NCBI RefSeq assembly: GCF_006716115.1
Contig: NZ_VFOO01000001.1
Location: forward strand, 3,658,001-3,722,000
Direction: 5' to 3'
From: Subtercola boreus
GTDB lineage: Bacteria; Actinomycetota; Actinomycetes; Actinomycetales; Microbacteriaceae
Length of the DNA stretch: 64,000 bases
The translations under genes and the position numbers were made by a program. The number at the start of each line of letters is the position of its first letter. The stretch's first letter is position 1. The notes below the pieces were generated by a model. That model saw nothing but the letters and a program-made list of their open reading frames with translations, was not told the origin of the DNA and made no database searches. This document shows, piece by piece, positions 1 through 5,788 of the stretch.

Positions 1-630
1 GTGCCCGTCGCTCACGAAGAACAGCGACACTTCGGGCCCGTCGAGGAACTCCTCGAACAGGATGTCGCCGTGCCCGAGCCACTCGCCGGCGTGCGCCAGA
101 GCCGCCTGTCGGTCGCTCGTGACGAGCACGCCCTTGCCGGCGGCGAGACCGTCGGCCTTCACCACCCAAGGGGCGCCGAACTCGTCGAGGGCGGCCTCGA
201 TCTCGGCGGCGGTGCTGGCACGGAGGGCGCGCCCTGTGGGCACCCCCGCTTCATCCATGATGCGCTTGGCGAACGTCTTGCTGCCCTCGAGGGCGGCGGC
301 CGCGCTCGACGGACCGAACACCGGAATACCGCGGGTGCGGAGAGCGTCGGCGACGCCGGCGACCAGCGGAGCCTCGGGGCCGATCACCACGAACTGGATG
401 TCTCGGGCGATCGCGAAGTTCGCGACGGCCTCGGGGTCGTTCGGGTCGAGGGTGGCGACCTCCACGACGCCCGCGATGCCGGCGTTGCCCGGCGCGACGA
501 TGATCTCGTGCTCTGCGGCAGCCGGCTCCGCGGCAGCCGGCCCTGTGGCGCCCTGCGCGGTGGTCTCCGAGAGCAGCGCGGTGACGATGGCGTGCTCGCG
601 AGCACCGGAACCGAGAACGAGAATCTTCAC
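1..630 (-). CDS. purD: Phosphoribosylamine--glycine ligase (GAR synthetase), 5' part only
   Basis: Ligates glycine to phosphoribosylamine with ATP, an early step of de novo purine synthesis in the cytoplasm. The first 210 codons are present and the gene runs off the left edge. The N-terminus MKILVLGSGAREHA is the PurD signature, followed by the N domain (GNAGIAG, VVIGPEAPLVAG) and the start of the ATP-grasp part (SKTFAKRIM, WVVKADGLAAGKGV). An Ala/Gln-rich stretch at about residues 25-38 makes the first loop longer than usual. The GTG start at 630 follows a -10 box by 6 nt, so the mRNA is probably leaderless. Identity is secure. Confidence 0.95.
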   Translation of the reverse strand, partial: MKILVLGSGAREHAIVTALLSETTAQGATGPAAAEPAAAEHEIIVAPGNAGIAGVVEVATLDPNDPEAVANFAIARDIQFVVIGPEAPLVAGVADALRTRGIPVFGPSSAAAALEGSKTFAKRIMDEAGVPTGRALRASTAAEIEAALDEFGAPWVVKADGLAAGKGVLVTSDRQAALAHAGEWLGHGDILFEEFLDGPEVSLFFVSDGH

Positions 631-636
631 TCGACG

Positions 637-642
637 ATTCTA
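637..642 (-). promoter_or_regulatory. -10 box of purD (leaderless)
   Basis: TAGAAT on the minus strand ends 6 nt before the GTG start of purD. No clear -35 is visible. There is no room for a ribosome binding site between the expected transcription start and the start codon. Confidence 0.6.
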
Positions 643-753
643 GGGCGGCGGGGGTATCCGAAAAGTTTTTGAGAAATCTGCGGAGTTCGCGTAATGGAAC
701 CGGGGGTACGCACTCTCTTACTCATGTGAGGTGCTGTTTGAGGCATCGCACGC

Positions 754-989
754 TCGTGTGGCGGGCGGTATCCCCCCTAGCTGTCCGCCACACGAAAACC
801 GCACGACCGCATCACTCGAGAACCACAGATCGACAACCACAGACTTCGCGCGTCGGGTCGCCGGCTCCCCCCGGCTGCCGCCCGGCGCGCGAACCCAGCT
901 TCGTACGGCCGTTCGCATCCCCCCTGCGTGCGGCCGTACGAACCAACTTCGCGGGGCAGCAGGTCTCCCCCCATCGGCTGCCCCGCGAA
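754..989 (+). ncRNA. 6C RNA-like locus: four hairpins each with a C6 loop
   Basis: Four inverted repeats lie in the 429-nt gap between purD and the sterol-carrier gene. Arms are 754-764/785-795, 845-857/881-893 (one G-U pair), 900-911/931-942 and 948-960/977-989. Every loop carries T followed by exactly six C (C6 at 772-777, 867-872, 919-924, 967-972). Three of the four begin TTCG and end CGAA. The last three repeat about every 50 nt. Established knowledge: the actinobacterial 6C RNA is defined by hairpins, normally two, with runs of at least six C in the loops. A weak promoter candidate is TTGAGA at 669-674 and TAATGG at 692-697 with 17 nt spacing. No U-tract terminator is visible after 989. 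Whether this is one long RNA or two 6C units cannot be decided from sequence. Confidence 0.75.
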
Positions 990-1047
990 CCACCTCCCCT
1001 CGCCGCCAGAGTCCCCAGGCTCCAGCCGTCCGCCTCCGGATGCTCGG

Positions 1048-1053
1048 TAGCCT
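1048..1053 (+). promoter_or_regulatory. -10 box of the sterol-carrier-like gene (leaderless)
   Basis: TAGCCT is followed by 6 nt and then the ATG at 1060. This is the same spacing as for purD and several other genes in the window. Confidence 0.5.
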
Positions 1054-1059
1054 TGTCTC

Positions 1060-1497
1060 ATGGCCCGCGCACGTATCCCCGACGCTGACGGAGTCGCCGC
1101 ACTGGGCGCCGCCCGTGCGGCTGTGGCGACGGTGGTCGACACGGGTGACCGGAACGGGGCAGGCGGCCCGGCCGCCGCCGACCAGGCCGCGCTCGCGGCG
1201 CTGCTTCCCCGGCCGGTGCTCGCGATGGCCGTGCGCTACTCGCTCCAGGTGCTCGCGGAACGCGCCAAGGGCAACACCGTCGAGGTGCGCGTGCCGCCGT
1301 TCGGCGCGATCCAGTGCATCGAAGGCCCGGGCCACACGCGTGGCACTCCGCCGAATGTGGTCGAGATGGATGCTCTGACCTGGGTCGCGCTGGCCACGGG
1401 TGACCTGGCGTGGGAGTCCGGGATCGAGAGCGGGAGCATCCACGCGTCCGGCCAGCGGGCTGACCTCAGAGGGTACGTGCCCGTCGCCCACCTGTGA
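1060..1497 (+). CDS. Sterol-carrier-like family protein (Rv0807-like)
   Basis: This 145-residue protein has the pattern of the actinobacterial 'sterol carrier family protein' group: an Ala-rich N-terminus, a central LLPRPVLAMAVRYSLQVLAERAKGNTVE-type segment split here as RPVLAMAVRYSLQVL and KGNTVEVRVPPFGA, a GPGHTRGTPPNVVE loop and the ending W-(V)-ALATGDL-W. In mycobacteria the homologue lies among purine genes, which agrees with purD next door, but its biochemical role is not established. The ATG at 1060 is leaderless-style. The 6C-type hairpins end 70 nt upstream, so the two could share a control region. Family call is firm, function unknown. Confidence 0.8.
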   Translation: MARARIPDADGVAALGAARAAVATVVDTGDRNGAGGPAAADQAALAALLPRPVLAMAVRYSLQVLAERAKGNTVEVRVPPFGAIQCIEGPGHTRGTPPNVVEMDALTWVALATGDLAWESGIESGSIHASGQRADLRGYVPVAHL

Positions 1498-1536
1498 CGG
1501 TGCGGTGCCGCGCAGCTTCCGGTGGTCGCGGTGGGC

Positions 1537-1542
1537 GACAAT
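1537..1542 (+). promoter_or_regulatory. -10 box of the small membrane protein gene (leaderless)
   Basis: GACAAT is followed by 6 nt and then the GTG at 1549. This spacing is the reason for choosing that start over the in-frame upstream GTG at 1522. Confidence 0.45.
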
Positions 1543-1548
1543 AGAGGG

Positions 1549-1914
1549 GTGAGTGACAACGATCGTGCCCAGTCCGAACCGACGGCCGCCAGTGGCGAGC
1601 CGGTGACCGACGTCGACGGTGTGACGAGTGTGACCAGCACCGACACGGTGACGATCCACCGCTCGCCCCGGTACTACCGGTTCATGATCGCGGGCGGCGT
1701 CGCCGGAGTGATCGTGGCGTTGGTGCTGACGTTCGCGTTCCCGGAGCCTCCCGGGTTCAACCCTGCCCAGATCTTCGGATTCCTCGGAATCCTGTTCGTC
1801 ATCGTCGGGGTCGTCGTCGGTTCCGTCGTGGCCCTGGTCATCGACCGCGTCTCGCGCCGGAACGCCCGCACGATCGACGTGGAGCGTTCTGAGTCGACGG
1901 AGCAAGCCGACTGA
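1549..1914 (+). CDS. Small two-helix membrane protein
   Basis: 121 residues. The first 45 are hydrophilic and Thr/Ser/Asp-rich. Two hydrophobic helices follow, FMIAGGVAGVIVALVLTFAF and a second starting at about IFGFLGILFVIVG, joined by a short PEPPGFNPAQ loop, then a charged tail (DRVSRRNARTIDVERSE). The protein fits a small family that occurs next to the sterol-carrier gene in Microbacteriaceae and is sometimes labelled as a Trk potassium transporter; nothing in the sequence supports potassium transport. The stop codon lies inside the first copy of a 22-bp direct repeat (1900-1921), so the C-terminal end may vary between strains. Confidence 0.75.
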   Translation: MSDNDRAQSEPTAASGEPVTDVDGVTSVTSTDTVTIHRSPRYYRFMIAGGVAGVIVALVLTFAFPEPPGFNPAQIFGFLGILFVIVGVVVGSVVALVIDRVSRRNARTIDVERSESTEQAD

Positions 1915-1974
1915 ACGGAGCTGCCGGCTGGGCTGAGCAAGCCGGCTGGGCTGAGCAAGCCGACTGAACGGAGC
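1900..1974. repeat. 22-bp direct repeat spanning a stop codon
   Basis: An identical 22-mer beginning GAGCAAGCCGACTGAACGG occurs at 1900-1921 and 1953-1974. A partial third copy (GAGCAAGCCGGCTG) lies between them. The first copy contains the TGA of the membrane protein gene, so this looks like a local tandem duplication at a 3' end. Confidence 0.85.
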
Positions 1975-2003
1975 GCAGCGGCTGTGAAGGCGGAGATCCG
2001 CCC

Positions 2004-2270
2004 CTAGGCTCGCTTCTGCTCGTCGCCCGGAATCCAGCCGGCGAGGTGTGAATCGTCGCCAGCCTCGAAATCGTCCGAATCGAAATCGTCAGCGTCGAGG
2101 TCGCTGTCGGCCTCGTCGTCGGTGTCGTACTTGGCGGCCAGGGCCGCGAAGTCGGGTTCGGCGTGTGTGCCCAACTCGCGCTCGAGCGCACTGTAGTTCG
2201 TGTCGGGGCTGAAATACTTCAGCTCGCGCGCCACCTTGGTGTGCTTAGCTTTTTGACGGCCGCGCCCCAT
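2004..2270 (-). CDS. DUF3073 family protein
   Basis: 88 residues. The basic start MGRGRQKAKHTKVARELKYFSP followed by a very acidic Asp/Glu-rich half is the hallmark of DUF3073, a small actinobacterial family of unknown function. I chose the ATG at 2270 rather than the longer frame because the family begins exactly at MGRGRQKAK and an AAAGGTGAG-like binding site lies upstream. The split into a basic head and an acidic tail suggests contact with nucleic acid or protein, but that is inference. The upstream AT-rich stretch at 2320-2350 is the only obvious place for its promoter. Confidence 0.9.
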   Translation of the reverse strand: MGRGRQKAKHTKVARELKYFSPDTNYSALERELGTHAEPDFAALAAKYDTDDEADSDLDADDFDSDDFEAGDDSHLAGWIPGDEQKRA

Positions 2271-2383
2271 GCGTGACCCCCTCACCTTTCGGGCCGGGGG
2301 ATGAACGCCACCCGGATGAGTTGAATACAAGAAAAACTACACGTGAGTTTAGCATGTAGCGACGGGGGTTCTTCTGTGTGCCG

Positions 2384-4579
2384 CTACTCGTCGGCCGCGT
2401 CGCGGGCAGCCTGTCGGCGTGCCTCGCGCGACACCCGCCCGGCCGGTACCGCAACCGGCTCCTGGGCCGAACCCGCGTCACCGACGAGGTCGCCGACGGA
2501 GTGCGCGCCCACGTCGGATCCGCCGACGGAGACCGTTGCCGGCTTCGACGGCGCACCGTCGTGCACCGTGGGGGTGTGCGCGCGCACGATCGGACGCACC
2601 GGGTCACCTCGGCGCTCCTGGCCGGGCACGGGGCGTGAGCGGCGCCCGTAGATGAGTTCGCTCGAGTCGAGCAGCCACGGCACCAGCGAGACCGTGACCC
2701 CGTGCACCAGCATGAGCCGGCGGTTCAGGCGCTTCGCCTTGTGGTTGTGCAGCAGCGACTCCCACCAGTGACCGACGATGTAGATCGGCGTGTAGACGGT
2801 GACGACCTCGGCGCCGTGCGTGAGGCGGTGCTTCTTGATGTAGGCGCAGAGCGGCTCGGCGACATCGCGGTAGGGCGATTCGATGATGTGCAGGGGCACG
2901 GCGATGTTCTGGCCCGCCCAGTCACGCTCGAGCTGGGCGGTCTGTTCCTCGTCGATCGAGATGTGCACCGCTTCGAGGGAGGCGTGCCGCGCCGCGATCG
3001 CGTAGTCGAGCGCCTTCAGCACCGGCTTCTGCATCCGGCCGACCAGCACGATGGCGTGGTCGCCCTTCGCGCCGAACGTGGTGATCGGGTCGACTTCGAT
3101 CTCCTTGTTCACGTCGCGGTAGTAGCGGTTGATGCCGAGCATGAACATGTAGAGGATCGGCATGATCACGAACACGAGCCACGCACCGTGGGTGAATTTC
3201 GTGATGGTCACGACGATCAGCACGACGCCGGTGAGCAGCGCACCGAACGAGTTGATGGTGAGGCTCCGGATGGTCCCAGCCCGGTCGGGAGCACCACTTC
3301 TCAGCAGCTTGATCCAGTGCACGATCATCCCGCTCTGGCCGAGTGTGAACGAGACGAACACGCCGATGATGTAGAGCTGGATGAGCTGGGTGAGGGACGC
3401 CTGGTAGACGAGCAGGATCGCGGTCGCAGCCAGCGCCAGCAGGATCATGCCGTTCGAGAACACCAGGCGGTCTCCGCGGGTGAGCATGGCCTTGGGAGCG
3501 TAGCTGTCTTTCGCGAGCACGGATCCGAGCAGGGGGAAACCGTTGAACGCCGTGTTCGCGGCCAGCAGCAGCACGGCGGCCGTCGCGGCCTGGATGATGA
3601 AGAACGGTATGGAGTTGTTGCCGAACACGGATGCCGCGACCTGCGCCATGAGGCTCCGCTGCGGTGTCGTCTCGCAGTTCGCGAACCCGATCAGGTCGCA
3701 GCTGTTCTCCGCGTAGTGCACCCCGGAGATCAGCGCCAGCGTGATGAGGCCGGCGAACAGCACGATCGCGATGCTGCCCATCAGCACCAGTGTGCGCTGT
3801 GCGTTCTGGATCTTGGGGCGGCGGAACGCGGGAACGCCGTTGGCGATCGCTTCGACGCCGGTGAGGGCCGAGCATCCACTCGAGAACGCCCGGAGCAGCA
3901 GCAGGATGACCGCCACCTGCCCCAGGCCTTCGGCCTTCACCGCGTAGTCCGCCGACTCGGCGACCGGGGCGCCGCCGACCGCTGTGCGGGTGAGCCCGAC
4001 CACGATCATGACGAGCACGCTGCCGACGAAGACGTAGGTCGGGATGGCGAAGGCCTTGCTCGACTCGCGCACCCCGCGGAGGTTGACCGCGGCGAGCAGG
4101 ATCACGAAGAAGATGGCGAGTTCGACGCGGAAACCGTTGAGCTCGGGGATGGCGGAGATGATGTTGTCGACACCACTGGCGACGGAGACGGCGACCGTGA
4201 GCACGTAGTCGACGAGCAGCGCGGAGGCGACGACGAGGCCGGCCTTCTCGCCGAGGTTCTTGTGCGCCACCTCGTAGTCGCCGCCGCCCGAGGGGTAGGC
4301 CTTGACGAGCTGGCGGTAGGAGGCGACCACGACCACCAGGAGCAGCACGACGGCTGCCGCGACCCAGGGGGCGAAGGAGAAGAAGGCGAGCCCGCCGATG
4401 AGCAGGATCATCAGCAGTTCCTGCGGCGCGTACGCCACGCTCGACAGCGGGTCGCTCGCGAAGATCGGCAGTGCCAGACGCTTCGGCAGGAGCTGCCCCT
4501 CGAGCTTGTGGCTGGGCAGCGGTTCCCCGATGATCCAGCGCTTCGCTGACTTGGGTTCGTTGGTCACGAGTGACGACAC
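2384..4579 (-). CDS. APC-superfamily permease with a large cytoplasmic C-terminal domain
   Basis: 731 residues. Residues about 35-500 hold some 12 membrane helices of the amino acid/polyamine/organocation fold, starting at the FASDPLSSVAYAPQELLMIL segment. The rest is a soluble domain containing HAIVLVGRMQKPVLKALDYA and EAVHISIDEEQTAQLERDW, which resembles a universal-stress-protein fold, and a Pro/Arg-rich tail. Proteins of this build are related to KUP-like and amino acid transporters; the substrate cannot be read from the sequence. A GTG at 4579 is used here. An alternative GTG at 4567 would follow a TAGTGT -10 box (4576-4581) by 8 nt and may be the real leaderless start. Confidence 0.85.
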   Translation of the reverse strand: MSSLVTNEPKSAKRWIIGEPLPSHKLEGQLLPKRLALPIFASDPLSSVAYAPQELLMILLIGGLAFFSFAPWVAAAVVLLLVVVVASYRQLVKAYPSGGGDYEVAHKNLGEKAGLVVASALLVDYVLTVAVSVASGVDNIISAIPELNGFRVELAIFFVILLAAVNLRGVRESSKAFAIPTYVFVGSVLVMIVVGLTRTAVGGAPVAESADYAVKAEGLGQVAVILLLLRAFSSGCSALTGVEAIANGVPAFRRPKIQNAQRTLVLMGSIAIVLFAGLITLALISGVHYAENSCDLIGFANCETTPQRSLMAQVAASVFGNNSIPFFIIQAATAAVLLLAANTAFNGFPLLGSVLAKDSYAPKAMLTRGDRLVFSNGMILLALAATAILLVYQASLTQLIQLYIIGVFVSFTLGQSGMIVHWIKLLRSGAPDRAGTIRSLTINSFGALLTGVVLIVVTITKFTHGAWLVFVIMPILYMFMLGINRYYRDVNKEIEVDPITTFGAKGDHAIVLVGRMQKPVLKALDYAIAARHASLEAVHISIDEEQTAQLERDWAGQNIAVPLHIIESPYRDVAEPLCAYIKKHRLTHGAEVVTVYTPIYIVGHWWESLLHNHKAKRLNRRLMLVHGVTVSLVPWLLDSSELIYGRRSRPVPGQERRGDPVRPIVRAHTPTVHDGAPSKPATVSVGGSDVGAHSVGDLVGDAGSAQEPVAVPAGRVSREARRQAARDAADE

Positions 4580-4621
4580 TACACCTCAGAAACGGCGACT
4601 CAAACTGCCCGGGAGCCGCAT

Positions 4622-5788
4622 TTATTCCCGCTTCGCAACGATCTCTGGCCCGATTTTGCCGACCGCAGACGCGCGGTGGCCTGCCCGCACCTCCAGCGCC
4701 TGCCGGGCATCCTCGAAGAGCGGGTCGTAGAACGCCGAACGGTAGGCGGCGGTGGTGGTGGCCGAGATGAGGAAGTTGAGCGACGAGACGCAGCTCAGGA
4801 ACACCGCCGTCTTGACGAGCGCGGCATCGACGGGAAGGCGGATGCCGGCCAGCTCGAGCGGCTCCCGCCCCGGCCCGAGCCAGCTGTCGAGCAGGCCTCC
4901 GCTGAACGCGATCTGGCCGAGCGCGGTGAGGAAGAGACAGACCAGGCCGGAGAAGATGGCCACCTGGAAGCCCTGCGCGAGCACGAGCACGGTGGTCACG
5001 TTGAGGTGTTCGAGGCGACTGAGCGGTGGGCCCGTGTTCTCGAGCCCGACCGTCTCCCGGCGGGTGACGGGAACGATGAAGAAGAGGCCGAGCGCCACGA
5101 AGAACGCCACGACGCCGGCCAGGCGCTCCGTCGACATCGCATTCGTCACCTCCCAGAGCGTGCGGGAGAAGAACGACACCACCACGACGAGCATGAGGAG
5201 GGGCAGGGCGCGGGTCGTCAGCTCGCCGAGCGCCCTCAGCTGCCGGATCGCCGACCGCAGGGACCAGCTCGCGAGCGACCCGAGCCCGAGCCCGGTGGCT
5301 GTGAGAGCGAGTGCGGCGGTGCCGGCGGCGCGTACGGTGCCGAGCAGGGCTCCCGTGCTCTCCAGCGGGCTGCTGCCGTCTGCTAGTGGATGCCCGGCGA
5401 GCCACGGGGCGACCACGACGTAGTACGCGAGAAGCATCCAGCCGGCCACGGTCATCCCGCGCGGCGAGGAGCTGAGCCAGGCGCTGGAACACAGGAACGC
5501 AAGCGCCGGGGCGAGGAACAGCACGACGAGCCCGAAGCCGGTGAGCACGAGCAGCACGAAGCCGGCGACGGGAGCACCGCTGTCGAGGCTGATTCTGGTG
5601 TGGTCGACCATCCAGCCCGCAAGATCGTACGAGCTCAGCAGCGTGATGAACGGCGCCGTGCGGGCGACCAGCAGCAGAGCGCGCTGCCCCGGTGCCACGA
5701 ACCACGGCAGGCCGCGGGAGCGCAGCCAGCGCTCGGCCTCACCGTCGCCCCCGTGCTCGGGCTCCGCCCGCGATGGATCTGTGAGCAT
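4622..5788 (-). CDS. Polytopic membrane protein of unknown function
   Basis: 388 residues with about eight hydrophobic segments, for example APFITLLSSYDLAGWMV, GFVLLVLTGFGLVVLFLAPA, LLMLVVVVSFFSRTLW and LAGVVAFFVALGLFFIVPV. The N-terminus is soluble and charged. I do not recognise the family. The frame stays open much further upstream, but the ATG at 5788 is chosen because TATCGT (5795-5800) precedes it by 6 nt, and the region beyond belongs to the divergent surface-protein gene. It lies 42 nt from the APC permease, which has its own leaderless-style -10 box. Confidence 0.7.
   Translation of the reverse strand: MLTDPSRAEPEHGGDGEAERWLRSRGLPWFVAPGQRALLLVARTAPFITLLSSYDLAGWMVDHTRISLDSGAPVAGFVLLVLTGFGLVVLFLAPALAFLCSSAWLSSSPRGMTVAGWMLLAYYVVVAPWLAGHPLADGSSPLESTGALLGTVRAAGTAALALTATGLGLGSLASWSLRSAIRQLRALGELTTRALPLLMLVVVVSFFSRTLWEVTNAMSTERLAGVVAFFVALGLFFIVPVTRRETVGLENTGPPLSRLEHLNVTTVLVLAQGFQVAIFSGLVCLFLTALGQIAFSGGLLDSWLGPGREPLELAGIRLPVDAALVKTAVFLSCVSSLNFLISATTTAAYRSAFYDPLFEDARQALEVRAGHRASAVGKIGPEIVAKRE

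Follow-up and report, generated by a model that had tools for sequence, protein, structure and literature searches.

A conserved row of C-loop hairpins between purD and an SCP gene in Subtercola, probably a small RNA and distinct from 6C RNA

Our analysis of the intergenic region between purD and a sterol-carrier-like (SCP) gene in Subtercola boreus identifies a conserved hairpin array that probably represents a C-loop RNA and is not a four-hairpin 6C RNA. We regard it as fairly likely that the array is an independent small-RNA gene, co-expressed with secreted proteins, whose loops would pair with G-rich ribosome-binding sites. This reading draws on the hairpins and their C-rich loops, their conservation, a promoter-like motif, the link of that motif to secreted-protein genes, and a separate 6C-like locus. 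Within the window, i.e. the whole stretch of DNA analysed (64,000 nt), the locus is composed as follows.

1..630, - strand: purD (start at 630; Pfam GARS_N/GARS_A), the divergent upstream neighbour, cut by the window edge
690..719, + strand: promoter-like CGTAAT-N17-CTCTCTT, with a putative -35 at 690-695 and a putative -10 region at 713-719; exact in 12 of 12 Subtercola genomes
754-795, + strand: hairpin 1, loop UAUCCCCCCUAG (folding, stem scan, hairpin catalogue, ortholog pair counts)
845-893, + strand: hairpin 2, loop with CUCCCCCC (folding, stem scan, hairpin catalogue)
900-942, + strand: hairpin 3, loop with AUCCCCCC (folding, stem scan, hairpin catalogue)
948-989, + strand: hairpin 4, the last, loop with CUCCCCCC (folding, stem scan, hairpin catalogue, ortholog pair counts)
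1060..1497, + strand: SCP_3 gene (bacterial SCP ortholog; Pfam PF17844, E 2.6e-40), the downstream neighbour

The initial observation of four C-loop hairpins, made in an earlier note on this DNA, was correct. All four inverted repeats carry a T plus exactly six C in the apical loop on the + strand, and the TTCG...CGAA frame claimed for three of them is present, hairpin 1 being framed by CTCG...CGAA. The spacing, formerly given as about 50 nt with one hairpin 95 nt upstream, comes close to the start-to-start distances of 91, 55 and 48 nt, and the location between purD and the SCP gene was borne out. The ungapped outer stems of hairpins 1-4 comprise 16, 14, 13 and 13 bp, and no other hairpin with a stem of at least 10 bp around a run of at least six C is found on either strand of the 64-kb window. 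Shuffling of 650-1060 yielded no such hairpin in 1989 of 2000 shuffles, one in 11 and two or more in none; 100 shuffles of the whole window, which are richer in C6/G6 runs than the real window (49.3 vs 19), averaged 1.03 such hairpins and never exceeded 5. The region 720-1060 folds at -168 kcal/mol (z = -7.59), a value that 0 of 100 shuffles reached. In the 4.2-Mb genome the pattern TTCG..TCCCCCC..CGAA has three copies, all within the array, and its reversed control has none. A hairpin covariance model, built partly from the four array hairpins, gave four strong matches in the genome, again all in the array (42.5-51.4 bits), the next best match scoring 23.8 bits. No U-run follows the last hairpin in the window sequence.

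All 12 Subtercola genomes searched, this one included, have the array between purD and SCP, as do three of eight Agreia genomes (G140, G159 and G161); G163 has one weak match. A second set has it at 8 of 8 Subtercola and 3 of 6 Agreia loci; ten loci are common to both genome sets, so that the two counts are not additive. Scanning of 80 SCP loci gave 11 arrays (8 Subtercola, 3 Agreia), and seven other loci had a single, chance-like hairpin on one strand. Outside Subtercola and Agreia no array was found among 150 genomes of the family, of which 72 had a match at E<=0.5, clustered only in G000 (this genome), G007, G090 and G140. In 396 genomes of the order, 25 yielded matches at E<=0.02, which form a cluster in this genome only, with hits inspected for 9 of the other 24; both sets are samples of larger groups, and the search filters lose weak matches. 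The best match of the hairpin model outside the two genera, in another family of the order (G486; L267 1459-1546), comprises two adjacent hairpins with C5 and C6 loops and is perhaps a 6C locus.

In 15 of 15 arrays the purD N-terminus is located upstream and an SCP-type N-terminus downstream (the SCP of G007 was identified separately). The arrays contain 62 hairpins, four in each of eleven Subtercola genomes, six in S. vilae (G007), and five, five and two in Agreia, the two-hairpin array being that of G159. The number four thus stands for this genome and falls as a fixed number. The C-run has six bases in 33 hairpins, five in 16, seven in 9, nine in 2 and four in 2; it is located on the + side in all 62, and a G-loop, with the run on the other strand, occurs in none. 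Stems, linkers (2-6 nt; 10-100 nt between hairpins 1 and 2 in Subtercola) and hairpin number vary while the C-run stays, and the last stem is opened by UUCGCGGGGC in the 12 Subtercola genomes. Comparison of the purD-upstream region among relatives, which the earlier note had proposed as a check, was thereby passed, every one of the 62 hairpins in the 15 genomes having retained its C-run. In the S. vilae array (L006 692-871) hairpins 2, 4 and 5 of the six are much alike, which suggests a recent tandem duplication of single modules. Two array-less Agreia loci, L102 (2850-2900) and L118, have a short, clean purD-SCP gap of a few dozen bases. At Agreia L104 the sequence CGTCAT is found at both array edges, so that loss of an array by recombination between short repeats is possible.

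The stems change with pairing kept. In an alignment of 19 hairpins from four genomes (one outermost base of one row mis-entered), 92.1% of stem cells are paired, vs 77.0% in shuffles; changes on both sides occur in 9 of 14 pairs, where shuffles give 6.0 and 11 of 500 reach 9, and the covariation score is matched by 0 of 500. These pair counts exclude the covariance-model alignment, which mixes both strands of palindromes. Orthologs of hairpin 1 are 92.5% paired with three double-change pairs (228 of 500 shuffles as high), and orthologs of the last hairpin 97.8% paired with one such pair (375 of 500 as high); no shuffle out of 500 matched the covariation score of either. Covariation among orthologous hairpins alone is modest.

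The earlier note had interpreted the locus as a four-hairpin 6C RNA instead of the usual two. Its general idea of a 6C-like design, with C-rich loops that could pair with G-rich ribosome-binding sites, is supported by our data. Membership in the 6C family is not: the Rfam 6C covariance model (RF01066), the proposed check, finds nothing at E<=10 within window 1-5000, the array loci score low, and all 12 Subtercola genomes carry a separate 6C-like locus with two hairpins. Over eight array loci (this one and seven relatives) the best RF01066 score was 27.2 bits (E 8.4, Agreia L011), vs 31-54 bits for the 6C-like loci of the family; the gathering score is 47 bits, and in Subtercola and Agreia even the 6C-like loci reach only 31.1-35.4 bits. 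In this genome the 6C-like locus, with the classical two hairpins, is found at C1:2434376-2434482 (31.1 bits, below the cut-off of 47). DNA similarity to the G007 6C-like locus identified one such locus in each of the 12 Subtercola genomes, 90-94% identical (G007 itself aside) over about 107 of 137 query bases. Each of these genomes therefore has two separate C-loop loci, and the array probably sits beside the known 6C RNA, not in its place. In G090 the 6C-like locus adjoins an acetyl-CoA-synthetase-like and a Tad-ATPase-like ORF, both identified by reading. The Rfam model is weak in this family, since 98 of 150 genomes have matches at E<=1 but only five exceed the cut-off. None of its matches in the present genome (29.7, 27.1 and 24.3 bits) is the 6C-like locus, and the best of them, C1:1415289, reads as a terminator-like hairpin; the count of 98 consequently includes false matches, this genome's two among them.

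It is unlikely that the array is a duplicated or extended 6C RNA, i.e. a paralogue that would have multiplied its hairpins, acquired a second promoter and kept the targets of 6C. Both share GC-rich stems and C5-C6 loops, RF01066 also matches the loci of nine weak hairpin-model hits (E 0.1-0.5) from other genera, and extra 6C copies have been described in some mycobacteria (PMC9569102). However, beyond the low array scores, the array differs from 6C in hairpin flanks, promoter region and place: the family's 6C hairpins, with GAUUCCCCCCAAUC loops and GGCGGCACC...GGUGCCGCC, lack the array flanks (UUCGUGCGG...CCGCACGAA), and the 6C-like locus, which would be expected to share place and sequence with an ortholog, stands elsewhere. 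The apical loops do agree with the roughly six C of 6C RNA (6, 6, 6 and 6 here; 4-9 in all 62 hairpins), while the short RNA with two hairpins is replaced by four hairpins here and by two to six in the 15 arrays.

The promoter-like motif upstream of the array argues for a gene of its own. Counted from the first motif base, hairpin 1 starts at a constant distance of 62-65 nt in the 12 Subtercola genomes, compared with the 10-100 nt that separate hairpin 1 from hairpin 2; the motif is also exact in both five-hairpin Agreia arrays (79 nt), and the two-hairpin array has CGTCAT and CTCTCT (75 nt). Exact motif sites number 29 in the 12 Subtercola genomes, 12 at arrays and 17 elsewhere, and the reversed control has none; the spacer at exact sites is always N17, though 15-18 were allowed. 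At 16 of the 17 non-array sites an ORF with a signal-peptide-like start follows 12-58 nt downstream, and the 17th site is cut by a contig end. Signal-peptide likeness was judged by hydrophobicity and by eye, the most hydrophobic start being chosen by script; several of the 17 sites are mutually orthologous or recently copied from one another. As a control, 2000 positions drawn at random from this genome were put through the same script, and 121 passed, the threshold being the lowest value among the 16. Of the motif-linked proteins, two (of 159 and of 186 aa) are without a match in Pfam, and a third (481 aa) has WD40-like repeats.

In this genome further motif sites are located at C1:1721149, 1721952, 1722758, 2552005 (- strand) and 2981564 (+ strand, one mismatch), and three motif-preceded secreted-protein genes lie within 1.7 kb. 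Allowing up to two mismatches gave 26 sites, five of them exact and one with a single mismatch, vs 18 in the reversed control, so that the remaining sites are mostly noise. The one-mismatch site and three of the 20 two-mismatch sites (picked for an intact CGTAATG) precede signal-peptide-like ORFs, one of which is less hydrophobic than all 16 exact-site ORFs. The motif set looks like an alternative sigma factor regulon of secreted proteins. BldN of Streptomyces has the -35 element CGTAAC, to which CGTAAT may be similar; the string CGTAAC was not found in the BldN literature, among the matches listed.

These data also bear on cis action, which the earlier note had suggested and which now appears less likely. 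Quite improbable, in our view, is that the array serves as the 5' UTR or attenuator of SCP (or, on the other strand, of purD), even though it lies directly upstream of SCP in all 15 genomes having it. SCP has a -10-like TANNCT 6-7 nt ahead of its start in 14 of 15 arrays (the exception is G007); here TAGCCT at 1048-1053, 6 nt ahead of the SCP ATG, would fit an own leaderless promoter. Similarly, TAGAAT at 637-642 (- strand), 6 nt ahead of the purD GTG as read in this genome, would fit a leaderless promoter for purD. SCP is furthermore present without an array in three of six Agreia loci, two of which (L102 and L118) have purD and SCP close together. The presence of this TANNCT and the fact that some Agreia lack the array disfavour cis control, and the fixed distance from promoter to hairpin 1 points in the same direction.

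Over 119 kb of this genome, comprising 94 ORF calls, no convincing array-specific target was found. A run of at least five G within 22 nt of a possible start occurs in seven of the 94, several of them doubtful. The clearest candidate is the following leader.

2240-2300, - strand: leader of a DUF3073 gene (gene start 2270), with CCCCCGGCCCGA..TGAGGGGGTC.CGC before the ATG

This leader is almost unchanged between Subtercola and Herbiconiux. The 110 loci scanned gave 10 distinct leaders, and all 10 retain the GAGGGGG ribosome-binding site, also in Herbiconiux, which lacks the array. As the same G5 site is found in array-less genera, DUF3073 would suit 6C RNA equally well and was rejected as an array-specific target. 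Its C5 and G5 runs could pair and thereby hide the ribosome-binding site, and the G5 run suits C-loop RNAs. The motif-bearing secreted-protein genes are not obvious targets either, since none of the 16 read has G6 within 100 nt after the motif (the maximum is five, in two of them).

An alternative function would be that of a protein-binding decoy or sponge, comparable to multi-site titrating RNAs, in which copy number tunes titration and mRNA pairing plays no part. One motif repeated in variable number (2-6) without fixed loop flanks would agree with such a role, as would the outcome of the target survey. We nonetheless give it little credence, because the C-loop RNAs available for comparison, B11 and sX13, pair with G-rich mRNAs (PMC10470900, PMC3771888). 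To our knowledge, no actinobacterial protein binding C-runs has been described. A DNA-level element (palindromic protein-binding sites or a REP-like repeat), for which the near-perfect inverted repeats and the TTCGTGCGG/CCGCACGAA consensus of many stems might speak, is highly improbable given a C-run confined to one strand (62 to 0), stems that vary with pairing kept so that no single site is retained, and a genome without comparable matches outside the array.

In the small-RNA scenario that we favour, the + strand would be transcribed from CGTAAT-N17-CTCTCTT, separately from SCP and purD, by means of a probably alternative, ECF-like sigma factor that would also drive the secreted-protein genes. 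The resulting RNA would form a row of rigid GC-rich stems with short linkers and a run of C4-C9 in each apical loop. These loops are most likely trans-acting, pairing with G-rich Shine-Dalgarno or leader sequences and repressing translation by analogy with 6C/B11 and sX13, and the presence of several loops may provide redundancy or valency. Points against this scenario are the survey's failure to yield an array-specific target, the modest covariation among orthologous hairpins, and the missing U-run behind the last hairpin.

Going further, we tentatively suggest a new family of small RNAs whose evolving variable would be the C-loop number (2-6) and which, switched by a sigma factor together with the secretome, could damp competing mRNAs with G-rich ribosome-binding sites. 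Enterobacteria have sigmaE-dependent repressor RNAs; if our suggestion is true, the array would be their actinobacterial counterpart, switched separately from 6C. If transcribed, it would represent an RNA family absent from Rfam that joins the few known C-loop regulators, and Subtercola would possess two distinct C-loop loci, each controlled differently. Since the shared motif ties the array to definable secreted-protein genes, the signal it answers to becomes directly testable. Natural arrays of two to six loops also offer a handle on how loop number relates to the strength or breadth of RNA action.

The array shares with known trans-acting small RNAs of the C-rich-loop type several stable stems, apical C-rich loops and one conserved strand. 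In the open-licence literature we found no comparable array and no Subtercola small RNA, and sX13 and B11 were the only multi-loop C-rich small RNAs found there. Rfam matches touching the arrays of relatives all stay below their gathering scores, e.g. in L169, where a miRNA family matches the last hairpin. The CcsR or "cuckoo" RNAs of Alphaproteobacteria (Rfam RF02791, CcsR1) likewise have C-rich loops and form tandem copies in some species. Their loop motif is CCUCCUCCC, named also in the title of the Rfam family, whereas the array has pure C runs; the CcsR1 model has no match in window 1-5000, and two sub-threshold matches in Agreia loci (16.8 and 19.7 bits) fall outside the arrays. sX13 of Xanthomonas resembles the array in having more than two stem-loops with apical C-rich loops (4C, 4C and 5C) and represses mRNAs with G-rich motifs near the start through three such loops (PMC3771888); it belongs to another phylum, has three loops, and is compared by design only. 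6C RNA (RF01066; B11 in mycobacteria) is likewise an actinobacterial, compact intergenic locus with GC-rich hairpins and C5-C6 apical loops. In M. abscessus, B11 represses eccB4 via either of two C-rich loops, acting through six G in the eccB4 5' UTR, and repression is regained upon compensatory mutation (PMC10470900). In contrast to 6C RNA, with its two hairpins and its own place, the array has two to six hairpins, other stem and loop flanks and another promoter-like motif.
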